NCBI GenBank assembly: GCA_030540075.1
Contig: JAUNWX010000016.1
Span: forward strand, 1 to 45,200
Reading direction: 5' to 3'
Source: Lachnospiraceae bacterium
Lineage (GTDB): Bacteria > Bacillota > Clostridia > Lachnospirales > Lachnospiraceae
DNA length: 45,200 bases
The stretch's first letter is position 1; every line of letters begins with the position of its first letter. Shown one piece after another: positions 2,472 to 17,428 of this stretch. The translations under genes and the position numbers were made by a program. Under the pieces are notes generated by a model, which had not been told where the DNA came from, ran no database searches, and saw only the letters and a program-made list of their open reading frames with translations.

Positions 2472-2703
2472 GTCAAAAGCCGGAGGGCCGACGCCAGAAA
2501 TCATACGGAGAGCTCGTGAAGAATCAAAATCCCATCCATTAGAAGTACTTAGAGTAATTTTTCCTTAATCCCCTCTGCAACGTTGAGTTTTCATCAAGAA
2601 AACTCAGCGATTGCAGAGGGCTTAGTACTTCTTATGGATGGGATTTTAGAGTCTTCCGAGCTCAGAGTACTGTGTTTCTGGCATCGGCCCTCCGGCTATT
2701 GAT
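2472..2703 (+). repeat. Copy 1 of a 232-236 bp structured multi-stem element
   Basis: A rod-like imperfect palindrome filling most of the cstA-feoA gap. Helices: P1 2478-2491/2684-2697 plus 2493-2500/2675-2682, extended outward to 2472/2703; P2 2510-2516/2657-2663 plus 2518-2522/2652-2656; P3 2526-2539/2634-2647; P4 2541-2549/2624-2632; P5 2571-2580/2611-2620; P6 2583-2592/2598-2607 with loop ATCAA. The one-sided loop between P4 and P5 carries GAGTAATTTTTCC. Copies 2 and 3 have the same architecture with different but compensated stem sequences. Orientation is called by the loop side. It begins 13 bp after the cstA stop codon. Confidence 0.85.
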
Positions 2704-2716
2704 AAAAGTATCGTGT

Positions 2717-4462
2717 TTAAGCGTGTACAGCCGCATCCTTGCTGTCCGTCGTACAGTTGATGTAGCTCTTTGCAGAGTTCACAACGATGGTGAGGCCGAG
2801 GATGATGAGGAGAACAGCAATGATCAGCTGAAGTCCGTTTGCGATGAAGACAGCACCCCAGGTGGTCTCACCAGCCGGGATCGCAACGGCTGCTGCGGTC
2901 TGGATGGCCTTGACCATCGCGATCAGACGCTGTACGAGTGCAGTGAAAGTTACGCAGAGCATGATGATGAGTGGCGGGAAGAGCATCTTATTGCTGCGAC
3001 CGGTCACCTTCAGGAAGACGCAGAGCGTAATCAGTACGAGTGCAGACAGGAGCTGGTTTGCAGAACCGAACAGCGGCCAGATGTTTGCATAGCCGACCTT
3101 CGTAAGGATGTAACCACATACAAGGGTGAGGATCGTGGAGAAGTAGATGTTGCAGAAGAGCTTTCTCCAGCCCTCGGCGTGCGCCATATCATCGACGCTG
3201 AAGAGCTCCTGGAAGCTCATACGTGCGATACGTGCGACAGCGTCGAGGCTCGTCAGTGCAAGTGCAGATACGCACATGGTCATGAATACGGTTGCGACAT
3301 GTGATGAGATACCGAACATCGAGATGAAGCCGGCAACACCACGGCTGAAGATCTGGAACGGTGTACCCTCCGCTGGTGTACCATCGGCAGCGGCAGCGGC
3401 ACCTGCGACACAGAGTGCGAGGACAGCGAGCAGGGACTCAAGAATCATGGCGCCATAGCCTACCTTCAGCATATCCTTCTCGTTGGAAACGGTCTTCGAA
3501 GAGGTTCCGGAGGATACCAGGCTGTGGAAACCGGAAACCGCACCGCAGGCAACCGTTACGAAAAGGATCGGGAACATGGTACCTAACTTCGCATTATTGA
3601 AGCCGGTGAAGACCGGAAGGTTCATGGTCGGGTGAGCGACGAGGAGGCCGATGGCGGCGCAGGCGATCATCGCGATGAACATGAAGGTGGTCATATAGTC
3701 TCTCGGCTGCTTCAGGATCCAGATTGGTGTGACAGCAGCGAAGAAGATGTAGATGAAGGTGATGTAGCTCCAGGTCTGCTTGCCTGCAACGAGCGGGAAC
3801 TGCATGCCGAGTGCGAAGCAGAGGACAATGAAGACGATGGCCATCACGGTCTCCTTCCAGCCGGTGAGCTTGCACTTCCGCTGGATCAGACCGTATACGA
3901 CAGCGAATACCATGAACATGATGGAAACCATGCCGGCGGCGGAGTTTGAATCTGCAGCGGCTGCCAGTGAGGTCACGCCATCGGTCACAGTGTAGGCATT
4001 GAACGTACCAGCGACCATGTCGGCGAAGGCTGCGATGACGATGCAGCAGAACAGCCAGCAGAAAAGAAGGAAGAGACGACGACCGGTCTTACCGATGTAC
4101 TTCTCGATGAGAAGACCCATGGAACGGCCCTCGTTCTTCACGCTTGCATAGAGCGCACCGAAATCGGTGACCGCACCGAAGAAGATGCCGCCGAGCAGGA
4201 TCCAGAGCAGAACCGGAAGCCAACCGAACGCAGCAGCCTGAATCGCACCGGTGACAGGACCCGCACCTGCGATGGATGAAAACTGATGGCTGAATACAGT
4301 CCAGCCGTCGGTCGGAACGAAATCCTCGCCATCCTCATACTTGACGGCCGGTGTCTTCGCCTGTGGATCGATGCCCCACTTATTGGCGAGCCAGCGTCCG
4401 TAAAGCGTATAGGCCGCGATGAGACATACGGCTGCGATCAATACGATAACAAGTGTGTTCAT
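2717..4462 (-). CDS. cstA: CstA-family transporter (carbon starvation protein)
   Basis: A 581-residue polytopic membrane protein of the CstA family, which includes peptide and pyruvate uptake systems induced on nutrient limitation. The family hallmark FSSIAGAGPVTGAIQ occurs near the N-terminus after the first membrane segment (MNTLVIVLIAAVCLIAAYTLYGR region), followed by about a dozen hydrophobic segments across the chain and a hydrophilic tail. The ATG at 4462 was chosen over one five codons upstream because GGGGG lies 8 nt before it. It has its own promoter and is flanked downstream by structured repeat copy 1. The exact substrate cannot be told from sequence. Confidence 0.9.
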   Translation of the reverse strand: MNTLVIVLIAAVCLIAAYTLYGRWLANKWGIDPQAKTPAVKYEDGEDFVPTDGWTVFSHQFSSIAGAGPVTGAIQAAAFGWLPVLLWILLGGIFFGAVTDFGALYASVKNEGRSMGLLIEKYIGKTGRRLFLLFCWLFCCIVIAAFADMVAGTFNAYTVTDGVTSLAAAADSNSAAGMVSIMFMVFAVVYGLIQRKCKLTGWKETVMAIVFIVLCFALGMQFPLVAGKQTWSYITFIYIFFAAVTPIWILKQPRDYMTTFMFIAMIACAAIGLLVAHPTMNLPVFTGFNNAKLGTMFPILFVTVACGAVSGFHSLVSSGTSSKTVSNEKDMLKVGYGAMILESLLAVLALCVAGAAAAADGTPAEGTPFQIFSRGVAGFISMFGISSHVATVFMTMCVSALALTSLDAVARIARMSFQELFSVDDMAHAEGWRKLFCNIYFSTILTLVCGYILTKVGYANIWPLFGSANQLLSALVLITLCVFLKVTGRSNKMLFPPLIIMLCVTFTALVQRLIAMVKAIQTAAAVAIPAGETTWGAVFIANGLQLIIAVLLIILGLTIVVNSAKSYINCTTDSKDAAVHA

Positions 4463-4506
4463 ACAAGTAACCCCCATTAGTTATAAAAATTTCTGAAATT
4501 CCTCAT

Positions 4507-7651: not shown

Positions 7652-8308
7652 TCACCGATCGACGACGAGCTCATCTGCGATCGCCCGCAGCGTCCGCGCC
7701 GCTTCCGTGATGTCCACTGCACCGAAGAGACTGCTGACGACGGCGAGTCCCGCAGCGCCATGAGATTTCAGGCCGCCAGCATTGGCCGCACTGATCCCGC
7801 CGATAGCCACGACCGGAATCTGAACCGACGCTGTGATGGCCCGGAAGGTCTCGAGCGGCATCGTCTTCGCATCAAGCTTCGTGCTCGTGCCGAACACCGC
7901 GCCGGAACCGAGGTAATCCGCGCCGGCCGCTTCCGCCGCCTGCGCCTCGGCCACCGTCCGCGCGGTCACGCCGAGGATCTTCCCCGGGCCGAGGAGACGA
8001 CGGGCTTCTGCCGCCGGCATATCGCTCTGCCCGACATGGACGCCGTCGGCATCCAGCTTCTGCGCGAGGGCCACATCGTTGTTCATGATGAACGGCACCC
8101 CATGCTTCCGGCAGACCGCCTGCACCGCCCGCGCGTCCTGCTCGAACCGCGCCCCGGTGCGCTCCTTCTCACGGAACTGCACCATGGTCGCCCCACCGCG
8201 GATCGCCTTCTCCACCGCCGCGGCCAGCGCCTCGGTTTCGGAGCCCGTCATCCCCCTCAGACAGTGCCGATCTGTAATCGCATATAATCGAAGTAAATCT
8301 CTGTTCAT
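7652..8308 (-). CDS. thiE: Thiamin phosphate synthase
   Basis: A TIM-barrel enzyme that joins hydroxymethylpyrimidine diphosphate to thiazole phosphate. Motifs seen in order: RLYAITDR, GGATMVQFREK, NNDVALAQKLDADGVHVGQSD, YLGSGAVFGTSTK and VAIGGI. The ATG at 8308 was chosen because AAAGGA lies 6 nt upstream; an ATG nine codons earlier lacks a site. The 218-residue product is of normal length. First gene after the TPP riboswitch. Confidence 0.93.
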   Translation of the reverse strand: MNRDLLRLYAITDRHCLRGMTGSETEALAAAVEKAIRGGATMVQFREKERTGARFEQDARAVQAVCRKHGVPFIMNNDVALAQKLDADGVHVGQSDMPAAEARRLLGPGKILGVTARTVAEAQAAEAAGADYLGSGAVFGTSTKLDAKTMPLETFRAITASVQIPVVAIGGISAANAGGLKSHGAAGLAVVSSLFGAVDITEAARTLRAIADELVVDR

Positions 8309-8432
8309 AGTTTCCTTTTGTTCAGATGCATACACACGATCTCATCCGCCAGTTGAGTCCCTTCATCCTGGTCCTCGTCGCCAGCTTGGTTTTCCGATCA
8401 CAGCGTGTCCATCTCACATGTTATAAAAGGTA

Positions 8433-8463: not shown

Positions 8464-8479
8464 GGAATACGCGTGCAAA

Positions 8480-8577
8480 AGCCCATCTCCCTACGTTGGC
8501 ATGATCCAAATCAGGTTTCCAGGGTCCGGAACGCACAGTTCCCATCTCAGCCGGTTCTGACCGACACCCCCGTGTAC
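8480..8577 (-). promoter_or_regulatory. TPP riboswitch (THI element)
   Basis: Read on the minus strand it has the conserved blocks in order: ACACGGGGGTGTC, GGCTGAGATGG, GGACCCTGGAAACCTGAT, TGGATCATGCC and ACGTAGGGAGAT. These form the pyrimidine- and pyrophosphate-sensing arms of the thiamin diphosphate aptamer. With the following terminator it should shut off thiE-thiD-thiW-thiM when thiamin diphosphate is plentiful. Confidence 0.96.
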
Positions 8578-8594
8578 TTTTATTTAACTTCGTC

Positions 8595-8623
8595 ATTATA
8601 GCACGGGACGGGAAGCTCAGCAA
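8595..8623 (-). promoter_or_regulatory. thi operon promoter
   Basis: On the minus strand TTGCTG (8618-8623) and TATAAT (8595-8600) are 17 bp apart. The start falls about 10-15 nt before the TPP aptamer. The -35 hexamer overlaps the outermost bases of structured repeat copy 2. Confidence 0.7.
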
Positions 8624-8855
8624 GGGGCCCCGGAGGGCCGGCAACGGATGCCATACGGAGAGATCGTGTGAAATCAAGCCGGGTCCCCTTAGCGGCACTT
8701 GGAGTAATTTTTCCATAGCACCCTCTGCAACGCTGAGTTTTCATCAAGAAAACTCGGCGATTGCAGAGGGCCTAGTGCCGCTTAGGGTCCCCGGCTTAGA
8801 GTTCACCGATCTCGGAGTACTGTGCATCCGTTGCCGGTCCTCCGGGGCCCCTTGC
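8620..8855 (+). repeat. Copy 2 of the 232-236 bp structured multi-stem element
   Basis: The outer helix P1 is 31 bp (8621-8651/8824-8854) with one G-T pair (8637/8838). Inside are P2 (GAGATCG pairing with CGATCTC, then GTGAA pairing with TTCAC), P3 (AAGCCGGG pairing with CCCGGCTT plus three pairs), P4 (8691-8699/8774-8782), P5 (8721-8730/8761-8770) and P6 (8733-8742/8748-8757, loop ATCAA). The loop GGAGTAATTTTTCC and the flanks ATACGGAGAG and GGAGTACTGT match copy 1. It occupies the gap between the divergent thi and fchA promoters. Confidence 0.88.
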
Positions 8856-8867
8856 CGAATCACAGGG

Positions 8868-10660: not shown

Positions 10661-11902
10661 TCATGCCAGTTCTGCCAGCACCTTTTCCAGCTTTTCCTTC
10701 ATCGCGTCGATGTGCTCATGCTCGATGACGAGTGGCGGTACGAAACGAATCGTGTTGTGCTCCGCTGCGATCAGGATGACCCGCTGCTCGAGCAGCATCT
10801 TCCGGACGATCTCTCCAGCCGGTACGGATGGGGCGAACTCGAGGCCCTGAATCAGGCCCATACCGCGATGATCCTTTACCATCTCCGGGAACGCTGCCTT
10901 CAGCTCTTCGAGGGCCGTCCAGAGGTACGCACCCTGTGCCTTCGCGTGGCCCGGGATATCTGCTTCCTTGAAGACATCCAGCACCGCAGATGCCGCGGCG
11001 CAGACAAACGGATTTCCACCGTAGGTGGAGCCGTGGTCACCCGGCTGCATCGCATGTGCAGCTTCGCCACAGGCGAGGAAGGCACCGATCGGCACGCCGT
11101 TTCCCAGGGCCTTCGCCACCGTCAGGACATCCGGCTTCACGCCGTAGGCCTGCCATGCAAACATGGCGCCGGAGCGGCCCATGCCACACTGGATCTCATC
11201 GAGGATCAGCAGCAGATCATGCTCATCGCAGAGCTTGCGTACGCCCCGGAGAAATTCTTCCGTCGCCGGATAGATACCGCCCTCACCCTGGATCGTCTCC
11301 ATGATGATCGCACCGGTGTTTTCATTGATCTGCGCCTTTACGGAATCGAGATCGTTGAAGGTCGCAAAGCGCACACCCCCGATCAGCGGCTCAAACGGTG
11401 CACGGTAGTGATCCTTGCCGGTCACGCTGACCGCACCCATGGAGCGACCGTGGAAGGAGCCCTGCATCGCGATGATCTCGCAGCCGGCCCGGCCCTTATT
11501 ATAGTGGTAGCGACGCGCGATCTTCAGCGCACCCTCGATCGCCTCCGTACCGGAGTTCGTGAAGAACACACGGTCCATCCCGCTCGCCGCAAGCAGCTTC
11601 TCCGCCGCCTCGATGGACGGCTCATTGTAGAAAAGATTCGACGTGTGCAGCAGTCCCCGGTCGATCTGCTCCTTCATCGCCTGGTCCACCAGCGTGTTGC
11701 CATAGCCGAGCCCCGCCACCGCGATGCCCGCACCGAAATCGAGGTACGCATGTCCGCCCGCATCGTAGAGCTCGACGCCCTTCGCGTGATCAAACGCTAC
11801 CGGAAAGCGATTGTAGGTCTTATACAGTACCTGCTCGCCCTCCGCTACGAGGCGGTCATTCACGATATTTCCCTTTACGATGGAATCATCCATAAATTTC
11901 AT
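10661..11902 (-). CDS. argD: Acetylornithine aminotransferase
   Basis: PLP-dependent class III aminotransferase converting N-acetylglutamate semialdehyde to N-acetylornithine. Seen: FFTNSGTEAIEGALK phosphate-binding run, LILDEIQCGMGRSG with the PLP-contacting aspartate, VLTVAKALGNGVPIGA with the Schiff-base lysine at about 264, and GSTYGGNPFVCAAA. The 413-residue length is normal. The ATG at 11902 has GAGGGG about 9 nt upstream; an in-frame GTG three codons earlier and an ATG three codons later are alternatives. Last gene of the argG-argJ-argB-argD series. Confidence 0.94.
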   Translation of the reverse strand: MKFMDDSIVKGNIVNDRLVAEGEQVLYKTYNRFPVAFDHAKGVELYDAGGHAYLDFGAGIAVAGLGYGNTLVDQAMKEQIDRGLLHTSNLFYNEPSIEAAEKLLAASGMDRVFFTNSGTEAIEGALKIARRYHYNKGRAGCEIIAMQGSFHGRSMGAVSVTGKDHYRAPFEPLIGGVRFATFNDLDSVKAQINENTGAIIMETIQGEGGIYPATEEFLRGVRKLCDEHDLLLILDEIQCGMGRSGAMFAWQAYGVKPDVLTVAKALGNGVPIGAFLACGEAAHAMQPGDHGSTYGGNPFVCAAASAVLDVFKEADIPGHAKAQGAYLWTALEELKAAFPEMVKDHRGMGLIQGLEFAPSVPAGEIVRKMLLEQRVILIAAEHNTIRFVPPLVIEHEHIDAMKEKLEKVLAELA

Positions 11903-12015
11903 TTCTTTCACCCCTCATCTGTCTATCCGCCGCATATTTCGGCCAATGCACTCTCACAGCACCCGCCCGCACGGGCACTTCCACCACGATGCTCAGCGCC
12001 TCTTCCCTGAAATTT

Positions 12016-12900
12016 TCAGAACCACGCGTCGATCGACTTCTCGATCATCGTGCCGATGCCCTGGTTCGTGAAGATCTCGAGGAGTAGGCAGTGCGGCACA
12101 CGTCCATCGAGGATATGCACACGGTTTACACCCTTCTTCATCGCATCGATGCAGTTCTGGATCTTCGGCAGCATGCCGCCGACCAGCTCCCCTGCATCCA
12201 TCATCTCCTGCGCCTTCTCGATGGAAAGCGTCGTGATGAGGGAGCTCTTATCTTCGAAATCCTTATACACGCCCTCGACATCCGTAAGGAAGGCGAGCTT
12301 CTCGGCGTGCATCGCTGCCGCGATCGCGCAGGCCGCGTCATCCGCGTTGATGTTGTAGCTCTGGCCACGCTCATCGAAACCGATCGGACAGATCACCGGG
12401 ATGAAGCCGTCGCTCAGAAGATCATCGATGATGGTGGTATCCACACCGACGATGTCGCCGACGAAGCCGATGTCCTCTCCCTTTGAGTACTTCTTCACGC
12501 ACTTCAGGAGATTTCCATCCTTACCGGAGATACCGACAGCCTTGCCACCGAGGTTGTTGATGAGCTGCACCAGGGACTTGTTGACCTTGTTCAGCACCAT
12601 CTCGGCGATCTCCATGGTATCCTCATCCGTCACACGGAGTCCGTTCACGAAGTGCGGCTCCATGCCGGCCCTGCTGATCCACTTCGAGATCTCCTTGCCG
12701 CCGCCATGGACGATGATCGGCTTCAGGCCGACCAGCTTCAGGATCGCCACATCCTGCATGACATGCTTCTTCAGGTTCTCATCCGTCATCGCGGATCCGC
12801 CGTACTTTACGACGACGACCTTATCCTGAAATTTCTGAATATATGGCAGTGCCTCGACGAGGGTCGCTGCCTTATCCATGATCCTGTTCTCGATTTCCAT
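12016..12900 (-). CDS. argB: Acetylglutamate kinase
   Basis: Amino-acid kinase family enzyme phosphorylating N-acetylglutamate. Seen: [11 protein letters not shown] near residue 30, [39 protein letters not shown] and [18 protein letters not shown]. The ATG at 12900 is preceded by AGGGGG; an open frame extends 35 codons further upstream but that extension is arginine-rich, lacks a site and is not conserved-looking. The product is 294 residues, the usual size. Its N-terminal helix before VVVVKYGG is of the type seen in arginine-feedback-sensitive kinases (inference). Confidence 0.95.
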
Positions 12901-15850: not shown

Positions 15851-16082
15851 ATGTAGAAAGGCGAAGAGTCCACTCCGGAGGCTTTGAGCCGGGACCGTGA
15901 AAACTCAAAACCGGACCCCTTAGAAACACTTGGAACAATTTTCCTCAGCACTCCTTCCAACGCCGGGTTTTCATAAAGAAAACCCGGTGATTGGAAGGAG
16001 CCTAGTGTTTCTTAGGGGTCCGGTTTTAGAATTTTCCGGTCACGGCGACCAGCCTCCGGAGGGGACTCTTCGCGTTCTACAT
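15851..16082 (+). repeat. Copy 3 of the 232-236 bp structured multi-stem element
   Basis: Most diverged copy. P1 consists of 15851-15858/16075-16082, 15861-15871/16063-16073 and 15873-15883/16051-16061; P2 has GACCG pairing with CGGTC and AAAA with TTTT; P3 15907-15920/16014-16027 is 14 perfect pairs; P4 15922-15930/16004-16012; P5 15951-15960/15991-16000; P6 15963-15972/15978-15987 with loop ATAAA. The left loop reads TTGGAACAATTTTCC. Its outermost base pair includes the last base of the argH stop codon. Confidence 0.85.
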
Positions 16083-17428
16083 CAGTTATCTGCATCCTCG
16101 AGCAGTGCCCCCGGCGCACCCAGCGTCTTCCGGTTCCGCACACAGGTCTCCAGCGAAATCGCCTCATAAATATCTGGATCGATCTCGTCACATACCGTAT
16201 GATACTCATCGATCGTCAGATCATCGAGCGCACAGCCCTTCTGCTCACAGAGCAGCACCAGCTCCCCGACGATGCCATGCGCCGTACGGAACGGCACACC
16301 CTTCCGCACGAGATAATCCGCCACATCCGTCGCATTCGTGAAGCCGAGCTTCGCCGACTCCTCCATCCGCGCCCGGTTCCAGCTCATGGTCGCCAGCATA
16401 TCCTTCATGAGCATCACCGAATTCTGCACCGTATCCATCGCGTCGAACGCGAGCTCCTTATCCTCCTGCATATCCTTATTATAGGCGAGCGGCAGCCCCT
16501 TCATCACCGTTAGGAGACTCATCAGCGCACCGTATACCCGACCGGACTTGCCACGGATCAGCTCCGCGATATCCGGATTCTTCTTCTGCGGCATGATGCT
16601 CGAGCCCGTCGAATACTTGTCCGAGATCTTCACGAACTTATACTCGTTCGAGTTCCAGATGCAGATTTCCTCACTGAGACGGCTGAGGTGCATCTGGATC
16701 GTCGCGAGATCGAAGAGGTACTCGAGGAGATAGTCACGATCCGACACCGAATCCATCGAGTTCTCCGTCGGCTTTCGGAAGCCGAGCTTCCGCGCAGTGA
16801 AGTCGCGGTCGAGCGGGTAGGTCGTCCCGGCGAAGGCACCGGCACCGAGCGGACACTCATTGAGACGATCCCGGGTATCCCCGAGCCGGCTGATATCCCT
16901 GAGGAACATCTCGCGGTACGCGCCCATGTGGTGTGCCAGTGTCGTCGGCTGCGCCTTCTGCAGATGCGTGAAGCCCGGCATATACGTCACCCGGTTCTCC
17001 GCCATGATGCCCTCGACGGTATCCAGCAGCGCCTGCATGTGCCCCACCATCTCATCGATGTGGTCCCGTGTATACATCTTCATGTCGAGCGCCACCTGGT
17101 CGTTCCGGCTCCGTCCGGTATGCAGACGCTTGCCCGGCTCCCCGATACGCTCCGTCAGCTCCGCCTCGACGAAGCTGTGGATATCCTCGGCGTCGCCCTC
17201 GATCACGAGCTTTCCGTCCTCGATGTCCTGCAGGATCCCCTCGAGACCCGCGATGATCGCCGCACTGTCTTCCTGCGAGATGATGCCCTGCCGTCCGAGC
17301 ATCTCCGCATGCGCGATCGAGCCCGTGATATCCTGCCGGTACATCCGCTTGTCGAAGCTCAGGGACTCGTTAAATTCCTCCGTCCGCTGATCCTCTGCCT
17401 CTGTAAATCGTCCACCCCAAAGCTTCAT
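16082..17428 (-). CDS. argH: Argininosuccinate lyase
   Basis: Cleaves argininosuccinate to arginine and fumarate. The MKLWGGRF start, DIHSFVEAELTERIG, KLHTGRSRNDQ-like RLHTGRSRNDQVALD, and the fumarase/lyase signature GSSIMPQKKNPD at about 280-291 are diagnostic; 448 residues is within the normal range. GGAGGGG precedes the ATG. It follows yfhO by 29 bp, so it is probably transcribed with the gtrA-yfhO pair and separated from argG by structured repeat copy 3 and a fresh promoter. Confidence 0.95.
   Translation of the reverse strand: MKLWGGRFTEAEDQRTEEFNESLSFDKRMYRQDITGSIAHAEMLGRQGIISQEDSAAIIAGLEGILQDIEDGKLVIEGDAEDIHSFVEAELTERIGEPGKRLHTGRSRNDQVALDMKMYTRDHIDEMVGHMQALLDTVEGIMAENRVTYMPGFTHLQKAQPTTLAHHMGAYREMFLRDISRLGDTRDRLNECPLGAGAFAGTTYPLDRDFTARKLGFRKPTENSMDSVSDRDYLLEYLFDLATIQMHLSRLSEEICIWNSNEYKFVKISDKYSTGSSIMPQKKNPDIAELIRGKSGRVYGALMSLLTVMKGLPLAYNKDMQEDKELAFDAMDTVQNSVMLMKDMLATMSWNRARMEESAKLGFTNATDVADYLVRKGVPFRTAHGIVGELVLLCEQKGCALDDLTIDEYHTVCDEIDPDIYEAISLETCVRNRKTLGAPGALLEDADN

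Follow-up and report, generated by a model that had tools for sequence, protein, structure and literature searches.

Genomes of the genus Oribacterium (Lachnospiraceae) harbor a multicopy, non-autonomous, MITE-like DNA palindrome, whose two arms have probably been made complementary by copying of one arm into the other, while its core appears to be selected as a fold. Three copies lie on the plus strand of the 45,200-nucleotide stretch that we analyzed (hereafter the window), as a sequence-only reading of this DNA had described (Table 1). Each of them is predicted to form one long unbranched rod, with energies of −148, −186.5, and −158.3 kcal/mol for copies 1, 2, and 3, respectively, and z scores between −17 and −21, none of 200 shuffled sequences being equally stable. 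The core of that description is borne out: the element is repeated, adopts a single fold, and combines compensated stems with loops that stay constant. The variants of helices P4 and P5 come with matching complements. Two details have to be amended. The length of 232–236 bp applies to the copies of the window, whereas well-preserved copies are longer (256–262 bp and 283 bp). Moreover, the helices are not matched throughout: a one-sided loop, bulges, and a pair of T·T mismatches separated by ten pairs are constant parts of the rod. Copy 2 is found between a TPP riboswitch, which immediately precedes a thiamine monophosphate synthase-like gene (7652–8335, minus strand), and a gene encoding an FTCD_C domain.

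Table 1. Copies of the palindromic element in the window, parts of copy 1, and neighboring features
Feature	Position	Strand	Remarks
Palindromic element, copy 1	2472..2703	+	Outer ends decayed; fold z −20.6; R1 match 2484-2707, E 6.5e-54
Palindromic element, copy 2 (AGCGGCACT subfamily)	8620..8855	+	Fold z −18.1; R1 match 8634-8857, E 2.3e-57
Palindromic element, copy 3 (outer internal loop variant)	15851..16082	+	Fold z −17.3; R1 match 15865-16085, E 2.8e-46
Copy 1, conserved T·T mismatch 1	2540, partner 2633	+	Predicted structure; non-complementary in 104/104 aligned copies
Copy 1, conserved T·T mismatch 2	2550, partner 2623	+	Predicted structure; non-complementary in at least 103/104 aligned copies
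Copy 1, one-sided loop (AGTAATTTTTCCTTAATC)	2553..2570	+	From fold and alignments
Copy 1, apical stem-loop	2571..2620	+	Conserved tip TTTTCAT.AAGAAAA; extrahelical A on 3′ side (2610); from fold and conservation
CstA-like gene, neighbor of copy 1	2717..4477	−	Stop codon 13 bp beyond copy 1
Argininosuccinate-lyase-like gene	16082-17428	−	Stop codon touched by right edge of copy 3
TPP riboswitch, neighbor of copy 2, outside the element	8470..8581	−	Rfam match

The family extends far beyond these three copies. Using blastn, and then a covariance model (R1) built from 41 copies (alignment A2, for which we dropped four of 45 blast clusters, three partial and one cut by a contig end), we found 49 full-length copies in the window's genome (2.31 Mb) and two more cut by contig ends, so the existence of further copies, on which the sequence-only reading had made its proposal depend, is established. 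Since contigs of this genome end inside elements (C41:1-128 and C7:1-137), its total probably exceeds 51 copies. The same genome contains several remnants of 56–68 bp and, judged from their sequence, some of the partial copies seem to have arisen by deletion across the hairpin, between short direct repeats. R1 matched 10 of the 17 Oribacterium genomes at E up to 1e-4, the window's own included; among the matches listed, full-length copies are present in at least eight of the 17, with weaker matches in G005 and G014. The 128 copies used below, a subset of the matches counted with R1, come from nine genomes (49, 22, 20, 15, 12, 4, 3, 2, and 1 copies). A pattern scan of named genomes returned 30 stretches, 29 of which are from Oribacterium (NK2B42, KHPX15, C9, WCC10, and RUI013), the other being an unrelated tandem repeat. 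Viral contigs had zero exact matches to four core patterns, in a scan covering both spacings of these patterns seen in Oribacterium copies (68–71 and 130–150), and plasmids and phages had no match to L213, a single copy used as query. At gathering score, Rfam 15 detected in the window the TPP riboswitch only, leaving the element unmatched, and at E up to 1 it returned nothing relevant for loci L213, L082, and L299. The element hence belongs to no known Rfam family, and we found it in no paper on Oribacterium repeats, Lachnospiraceae palindromes, IS66 and MITEs, hairpin MITEs and RNase III, or the end motif, in a literature surveyed largely at the level of titles. We regard it as a new family among the palindromic, MITE-like elements, a kind already known, with a behavior that is unusual and testable.

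How widespread might such rods be outside Oribacterium? An R1 scan of 299 sampled genomes of the family added one genome, G268, in which a separate search found 17 copies (E 5e-11 to 8e-6) that share the motifs CCCTTAG....ACTTGG and CCTAGT....CTTAGGG with those of Oribacterium. A second model (R2), built from 11 G268 cores, matched 8 of 397 genomes and 7 of 334 genera, including that of G268. The matched elements consist of a long stem that bears two hairpins, one at its side and one at its apex, and in most of them the outer stems vary from copy to copy. Rods with a related branched core were found, among the genomes sampled, in seven genera besides Oribacterium, with weak matches in some cases, and these genus counts are lower bounds because the family scans scored six to seven candidates per genome (six for R2). 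Since R2 finds no Oribacterium copies (0 in the window's genome), the six further genera are tied to the window through G268 alone, and since any long hairpin scores well under a rod-shaped model, the weakest matches to R2 (G170, G383, and G171) may be unrelated. The tie of the element to the more distant genera is among our weakest claims. A coding role of the 5′ arm, considered because of a reading frame in G268, was dropped upon inspection by eye, other copies having stops.

In well-preserved copies, the long rod is flanked by inverted repeats of the GTAACAGTTCAG type. In five of the 128 copies, 8-bp direct repeats abut both ends (GTTTACTT, ATTTACAG, ATGCATTG, CTTTATTT, and ACATTTTC), and the ends of these five resemble GTAACAGTTCAG at 8–12 of 12 positions. 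The length between target duplications is 256–262 bp for the four copies in the window's genome and 282 bp for the one in G013, and a 283-bp copy with perfect ends (L213) is found in a relative. Any flank repeat of 8–10 bp was seen in 12/128 copies, compared to 37/1084 mispaired flanks; given this rarity, a visible duplication is missing from most copies, either through loss or from the outset. The end motif GTAACAGTTCAGCCGGG (up to two mismatches) is present in 12 of the 17 genomes, with 26 occurrences in the window's genome, 95 in G004, 56 in G011, and 51 in G012, while the reversed motif used as a control occurs zero to one time per genome (0 in each of these four). Small elements of 47–101 bp with the same ends exhibit an exact 8-bp duplication in nine of 14 cases (six of the 20 fetched regions had no end-to-end pair), and end-to-end pairs have an exact 8-bp repeat in four of 12 cases, two of these four also belonging to the small-element set. 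There is no transposase gene inside the element (256–283 bp), and an ORF lying partly or wholly on it was called in only one of 118 loci. The element is thus a non-autonomous, MITE-like mobile palindrome, its mobility being one of our strongest claims. The sequence-only reading had recognized in it no known RNA class, REP, or MITE, which stands with respect to Rfam but not to MITEs, since terminal inverted repeats and 8-bp target duplications make it MITE-like.

Several other sequences with related ends were seen along the way. The small elements (L277–L289 and L294, in G004 and G011), of which the 101-bp ones are near-perfect palindromes, may carry end variants such as GTAGCAG or AGTCGG at both ends of one copy. 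Six loci (L245, L246, L248, L249, L247 at 11778–12126, and L212) have GTAACAGTTCAGCC ends around a different, repeat-rich interior of 219–876 bp, with one exact 8-bp duplication and two matching at 7/8. In L211 (G011 C203), helix-turn-helix–like and transposase-like ORFs start shortly inside a 63-bp stretch common to these repeat-type elements, which is suggestive of an IS3-type insertion into one such element, the family being named by eye. Finally, at the start of a contig of the window's genome (L121 1–112, C25), a GTAAC end is followed by a terminator-like hairpin, and then by sequence resembling the start of a group II intron.

IS66 elements generate 8-bp duplications and start with GTAA. 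In G006, a gene for an IS66-family transposase (558 aa, PF03050 E 1.9e-20) lies between GTTACTGTTCAC ends, which are like those of our element at 9 of 12 positions, and the sequence of two contig ends places CTTTTGAC on both of its outer sides. The element shares with the IS66 family the 8-bp duplication and the GTTACTGTTCAC ends of this G006 element but, unlike IS66 insertion sequences, it has no transposase, and its exact ends were found on no IS66 copy: with up to three mismatches, the end was found at none of 22 IS66-type loci (L255–L276), which span 1.5 kb beyond the match. A canonical IS66 was rejected as a partner because of this result and because both IS66 matches found in the genome of the window start with GTAAGCGCTCAG and have other ends. 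G008 and G011 (73% and 77% complete) have elements and no IS66 match. An element at a contig end in G004 (L236) has a weak similarity to the left portion of the IS66-like element of G006, with a score of 34 against 30 for the best of 200 shuffles. A DDE transposase of IS66 type probably mobilizes the element in trans, this putative partnership being among our weakest claims. A multicopy single-ORF IS66-like transposon was also noticed in G004 (L240, C29) and G006 (L266, L269, L271, and L274), and its left end in G004 lies 41 bp inside a GTAAC-ended element, as a nested insertion. The window's genome, in addition, encodes a single RAYT-like Y1 protein (L050; C67:24567-24896, minus strand).

Elements are mostly found directly behind stop codons and rarely between divergent genes. 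Of 118 loci in five Oribacterium genomes, 114 could be classed (four could not), with 30 copies between convergent genes and six between divergent ones (binomial test, 7e-5), and the corresponding numbers in other genera are 13 and 2 (30 of 31 loci could be classed). Measured from the modeled edge, the median distance is 16 bp for 3′ ends of genes (n = 138) and 112 bp for 5′ ends (n = 90), and since complete elements extend beyond the modeled edge, many begin at the stop codon itself. This 3′-end placement is among our strongest claims, and the reason for it is probably that insertions elsewhere have been purged. Relative to the upstream gene, antisense copies outnumber sense copies 48:30 in Oribacterium (p 0.054; 24:8 in the window's genome) and 11:4 in other genera (p 0.12), with a pooled p of 0.012. 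Between distant species, six of seven pairs, at five sites, have elements in opposite orientation at one intergenic site (L009/L143, L017/L077, L121/L152, L121/L192, L186/L174, and L099/L178), as the result of either an in-place flip or an independent insertion.

Compensatory change is widely held to be the best comparative proof of RNA structure, and it is abundant here. In A2, both sides change in 51 of 68 pairs, with 423 double-change cells versus a mean of 111 after shuffling (a value reached in none of 500 shuffles), and pairing falls from 96.6% to 44–52% once the partner is shifted by a single column. Double changes and covariation score exceed those of all 500 shuffles and all slid versions, and in a larger, model-fitted alignment (A3, 104 copies) 59 of 68 pairs change on both sides. 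Lack of covariation is therefore no longer a concern for the compensated stems reported in the sequence-only reading.

The mismatches tell a different story from that of RNA. Among the 2786 cells of A2, those that are not Watson–Crick comprise 30 G·U, 31 A·C, and 64 others, so that the strand hint that the sequence-only reading had drawn from wobble pairs vanishes over 41 copies. Isolated mismatches in distinct contexts across the 128 copies give 47 G·U and 49 A·C, and the outer arms in other genera six and nine (14 loci, two of 16 having been left out near contig starts). In contrast, 18 tRNAs used as a control, i.e., those of about 20 that parsed with >70% Watson–Crick pairs, have 32 G·U and 0 A·C (Fisher's test versus A2, 7e-8). 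Three counts do lean toward G·U, namely A3 (99 versus 72 A·C), a fold-based same-site count (20 versus 10), and the G268 stems (4 versus 1); we attribute the first two to the way of choosing pairs, while the third is a small sample. Since A3 was fitted to the model and leans toward G·U, the unfitted A2 count was used. The double changes themselves are of 86 types in A2, 41 transitions and 45 transversions, and 14 of 34 same-site double changes (see below) are able to pass through G·U. These shares are below the 61.0% of transition type reported among instantaneous compensations in RNA genes (PMC8794818), with binomial values of 0.015 for A2 and 0.022 for same-site changes, in a comparison that is rough because that study counts events and ours types or pairs. 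As G·U and A·C are about equally frequent, unlike in tRNAs, we do not read stem covariation as selection on RNA, and the missing wobble signal is one of our strongest claims.

Compensation can be seen at fixed sites. By their flanks, 10 close pairs represent the same insertion in two species, seven of which, of equal length, were counted (the three of unequal length were left out). With a flank identity of 92–97%, these seven pairs exhibit 34 double changes (1, 11, 8, 5, 0, 1, and 8 per pair), 49 single changes, and four other both-side changes, when about 0.7 double changes would be expected from independent mutation. G004_L180 and G011_L194 differ inside the element solely by one A-T pair that has become T-A, while two other pairs show mostly single changes (0 double versus 3 single, and 1 versus 9). 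Two plain 101-bp palindromes with the same ends and without the core also differ from one another on both arms. Within one genome, the fraction of double changes is 0.35 at 90–95% identity and rises to about 0.73. The outer stems of G268 (46 bp; 11 copies parsed and six of 17 not) are nearly perfect, with 501 Watson–Crick, four G·U, and one A·C pairs, although copies differ pairwise by 16.7 pairs on average, with 871 double versus 48 single changes; even the closest copies differ in 6–7 of 46 pairs, nearly all on both arms. Since none of these 11 copies is a recent duplicate, their arms have been leveled in situ or via a long chain of lost copies.

The core behaves in the opposite way. The two T·T mismatches are kept in at least 207 of 208 cases (two sites in 104 copies), and the CTTAG-block pairs beside them are nearly fixed, while the helices beyond are rewritten. 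Selection on the folded core, with its T·T mismatches and loops, does look real. We infer that some factor reads the core; in the simplest case, this would be the mobility machinery, with a single-stranded hairpin or cruciform as its substrate, a role that is among our weakest claims. The selection on structure that the sequence-only reading proposed appears to hold for the core but is not supported, at the RNA level, for the stems: these show no G·U excess, the 101-bp palindromes also differ on both arms, and same-site copies gain double changes quickly.

We consider it probable that, at the DNA level, one arm repeatedly serves as a template for the other, through template switching or hairpin-templated repair at the fork. 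Template switching between the arms of inverted repeats is described as making them alike at the DNA level (PMC8604942, PMC8794818). The arms would stay complementary because any mutation arising in one of them would either be transferred to its partner or be removed, and this leveling would act in place and without G·U intermediates, a pattern that is observed, with a putative enzymology. Single changes in resident copies would be mutations not yet leveled. The core, with its two T·T mismatches one helical turn apart within CTTAG blocks, bulges, and apical loop, would be spared, which suggests that selection acts on its single-stranded fold; the most likely form would be a hairpin or cruciform of DNA that the mobility machinery recognizes. 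Blind arm copying should have erased the T·T mismatches, and their survival calls for a second force. Other points speak against arm-to-arm copying: ectopic gene conversion from another copy could be the source of in-place double changes, the two same-site pairs with mostly single changes and the fraction of 0.35 in the closest copies would also fit slow, selection-driven compensation, and the conserved internal loops and loop sequences look RNA-like.

Could the element instead be a multicopy structured non-coding RNA, trans-acting or in 3′ untranslated regions, that was spread by transposons and whose fold is under selection? The covariation in both alignments, the conserved loops, bulges, and T·T mismatches, the similar architecture in other genera, and the weak G·U leanings of three counts all favor this reading, but we regard it as unlikely. 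G·U and A·C are balanced in the three main counts when tRNAs show 32:0, transversion doubles are as frequent as transition doubles, copies are found in either orientation relative to the upstream gene, somewhat more often antisense, palindromes devoid of the core change on both arms as well, and Rfam has no match. Somewhat less probable still is that the arms are compensated by gene conversion between different copies, i.e., by exchange of whole modules. Each genome offers many donor copies, and the helix modules AGCGGCACT, AGAACCAGT, and AGAAGTACT appear by eye in mosaic combinations, but L180 and L194 are set apart by a single double change, and the 11 parsed G268 copies are never near-identical (minimum 6/46 pairs), so that donors would bring further changes.

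That these are REPIN-like elements moved as single-stranded hairpins by a RAYT (Y1 HUH transposase) seems very improbable. They are palindromic, extragenic, mismatched hairpins with compensatory changes, which on both hairpin sides are called common in REPINs (PMC3116915), and a RAYT-like Y1 protein is encoded in the window's genome, but no element lies within its 3.3-kb locus. There is no match to PF01797 (Y1) in three genomes that carry elements, G007 (97% complete), G008 (73%), and G013 (97%; at least 20 copies), for which reason we rejected a REPIN/RAYT identity. To our knowledge, 8-bp target duplications and GTAAC-type ends are not REPIN features.

The element combines traits of several known systems. 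With the hairpin MITEs of bacteria, which include Correia, ERIC, and QMITE2, are found at gene ends in some cases, and are reported with hairpin transcripts and 3′-end insertions (PMC10969869), it has in common that it is short, non-coding, and intergenic, in some cases at 3′ ends, with inverted ends, a target duplication, and a stable single-strand stem-loop (PMC10969869). It differs from them by a stem renewed through compensated changes, a fixed T·T core, and the occurrence elsewhere of rods with a related core and other outer stems; the terms IS66, compensatory, and Lachnospiraceae are absent from the main text of that review (PMC10969869). With REPINs, as described in PMC3116915, it shares being an extragenic, mobile, and compensated hairpin, but it needs no Y1 gene, has an 8-bp duplication and GTAAC ends, is longer, and is branched in other genera. 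With template-switched inverted repeats, it would share the likening of arms at the DNA level and instant double changes (PMC8794818, PMC8604942, PMC6649704). The cases presented in these papers concern rRNA and other RNA genes, yeast coding genes, mitochondrial genes, and coding palindromes of Nematomorpha (PMC8794818, PMC8604942, PMC6649704); unlike them, ours involves a mobile family, a readout of wobble versus A·C, and same-site pairs.

Taken together, these findings indicate that matching changes in two arms do not by themselves prove a working RNA: compensation in this family is very strong, yet the wobble ratio and the transition share speak against RNA pairing as its driver. The comparison of G·U with A·C offers a simple diagnostic for other covarying "RNAs". 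Same-site pairs in named Oribacterium strains make the hairpin-keeping role proposed for template switching (PMC8794818) directly measurable, and the kept T·T mismatches point to a putative reader of the fold. More tentatively, and with rather less than even confidence, we suggest that the element may represent a Lachnospiraceae-wide class of folded, mobile single strands with a mismatch core read by a protein and stems rewritten by replication faster than by point mutation. If true, this would provide a case of near-perfect covariation without RNA function, and a natural recorder of template switching.
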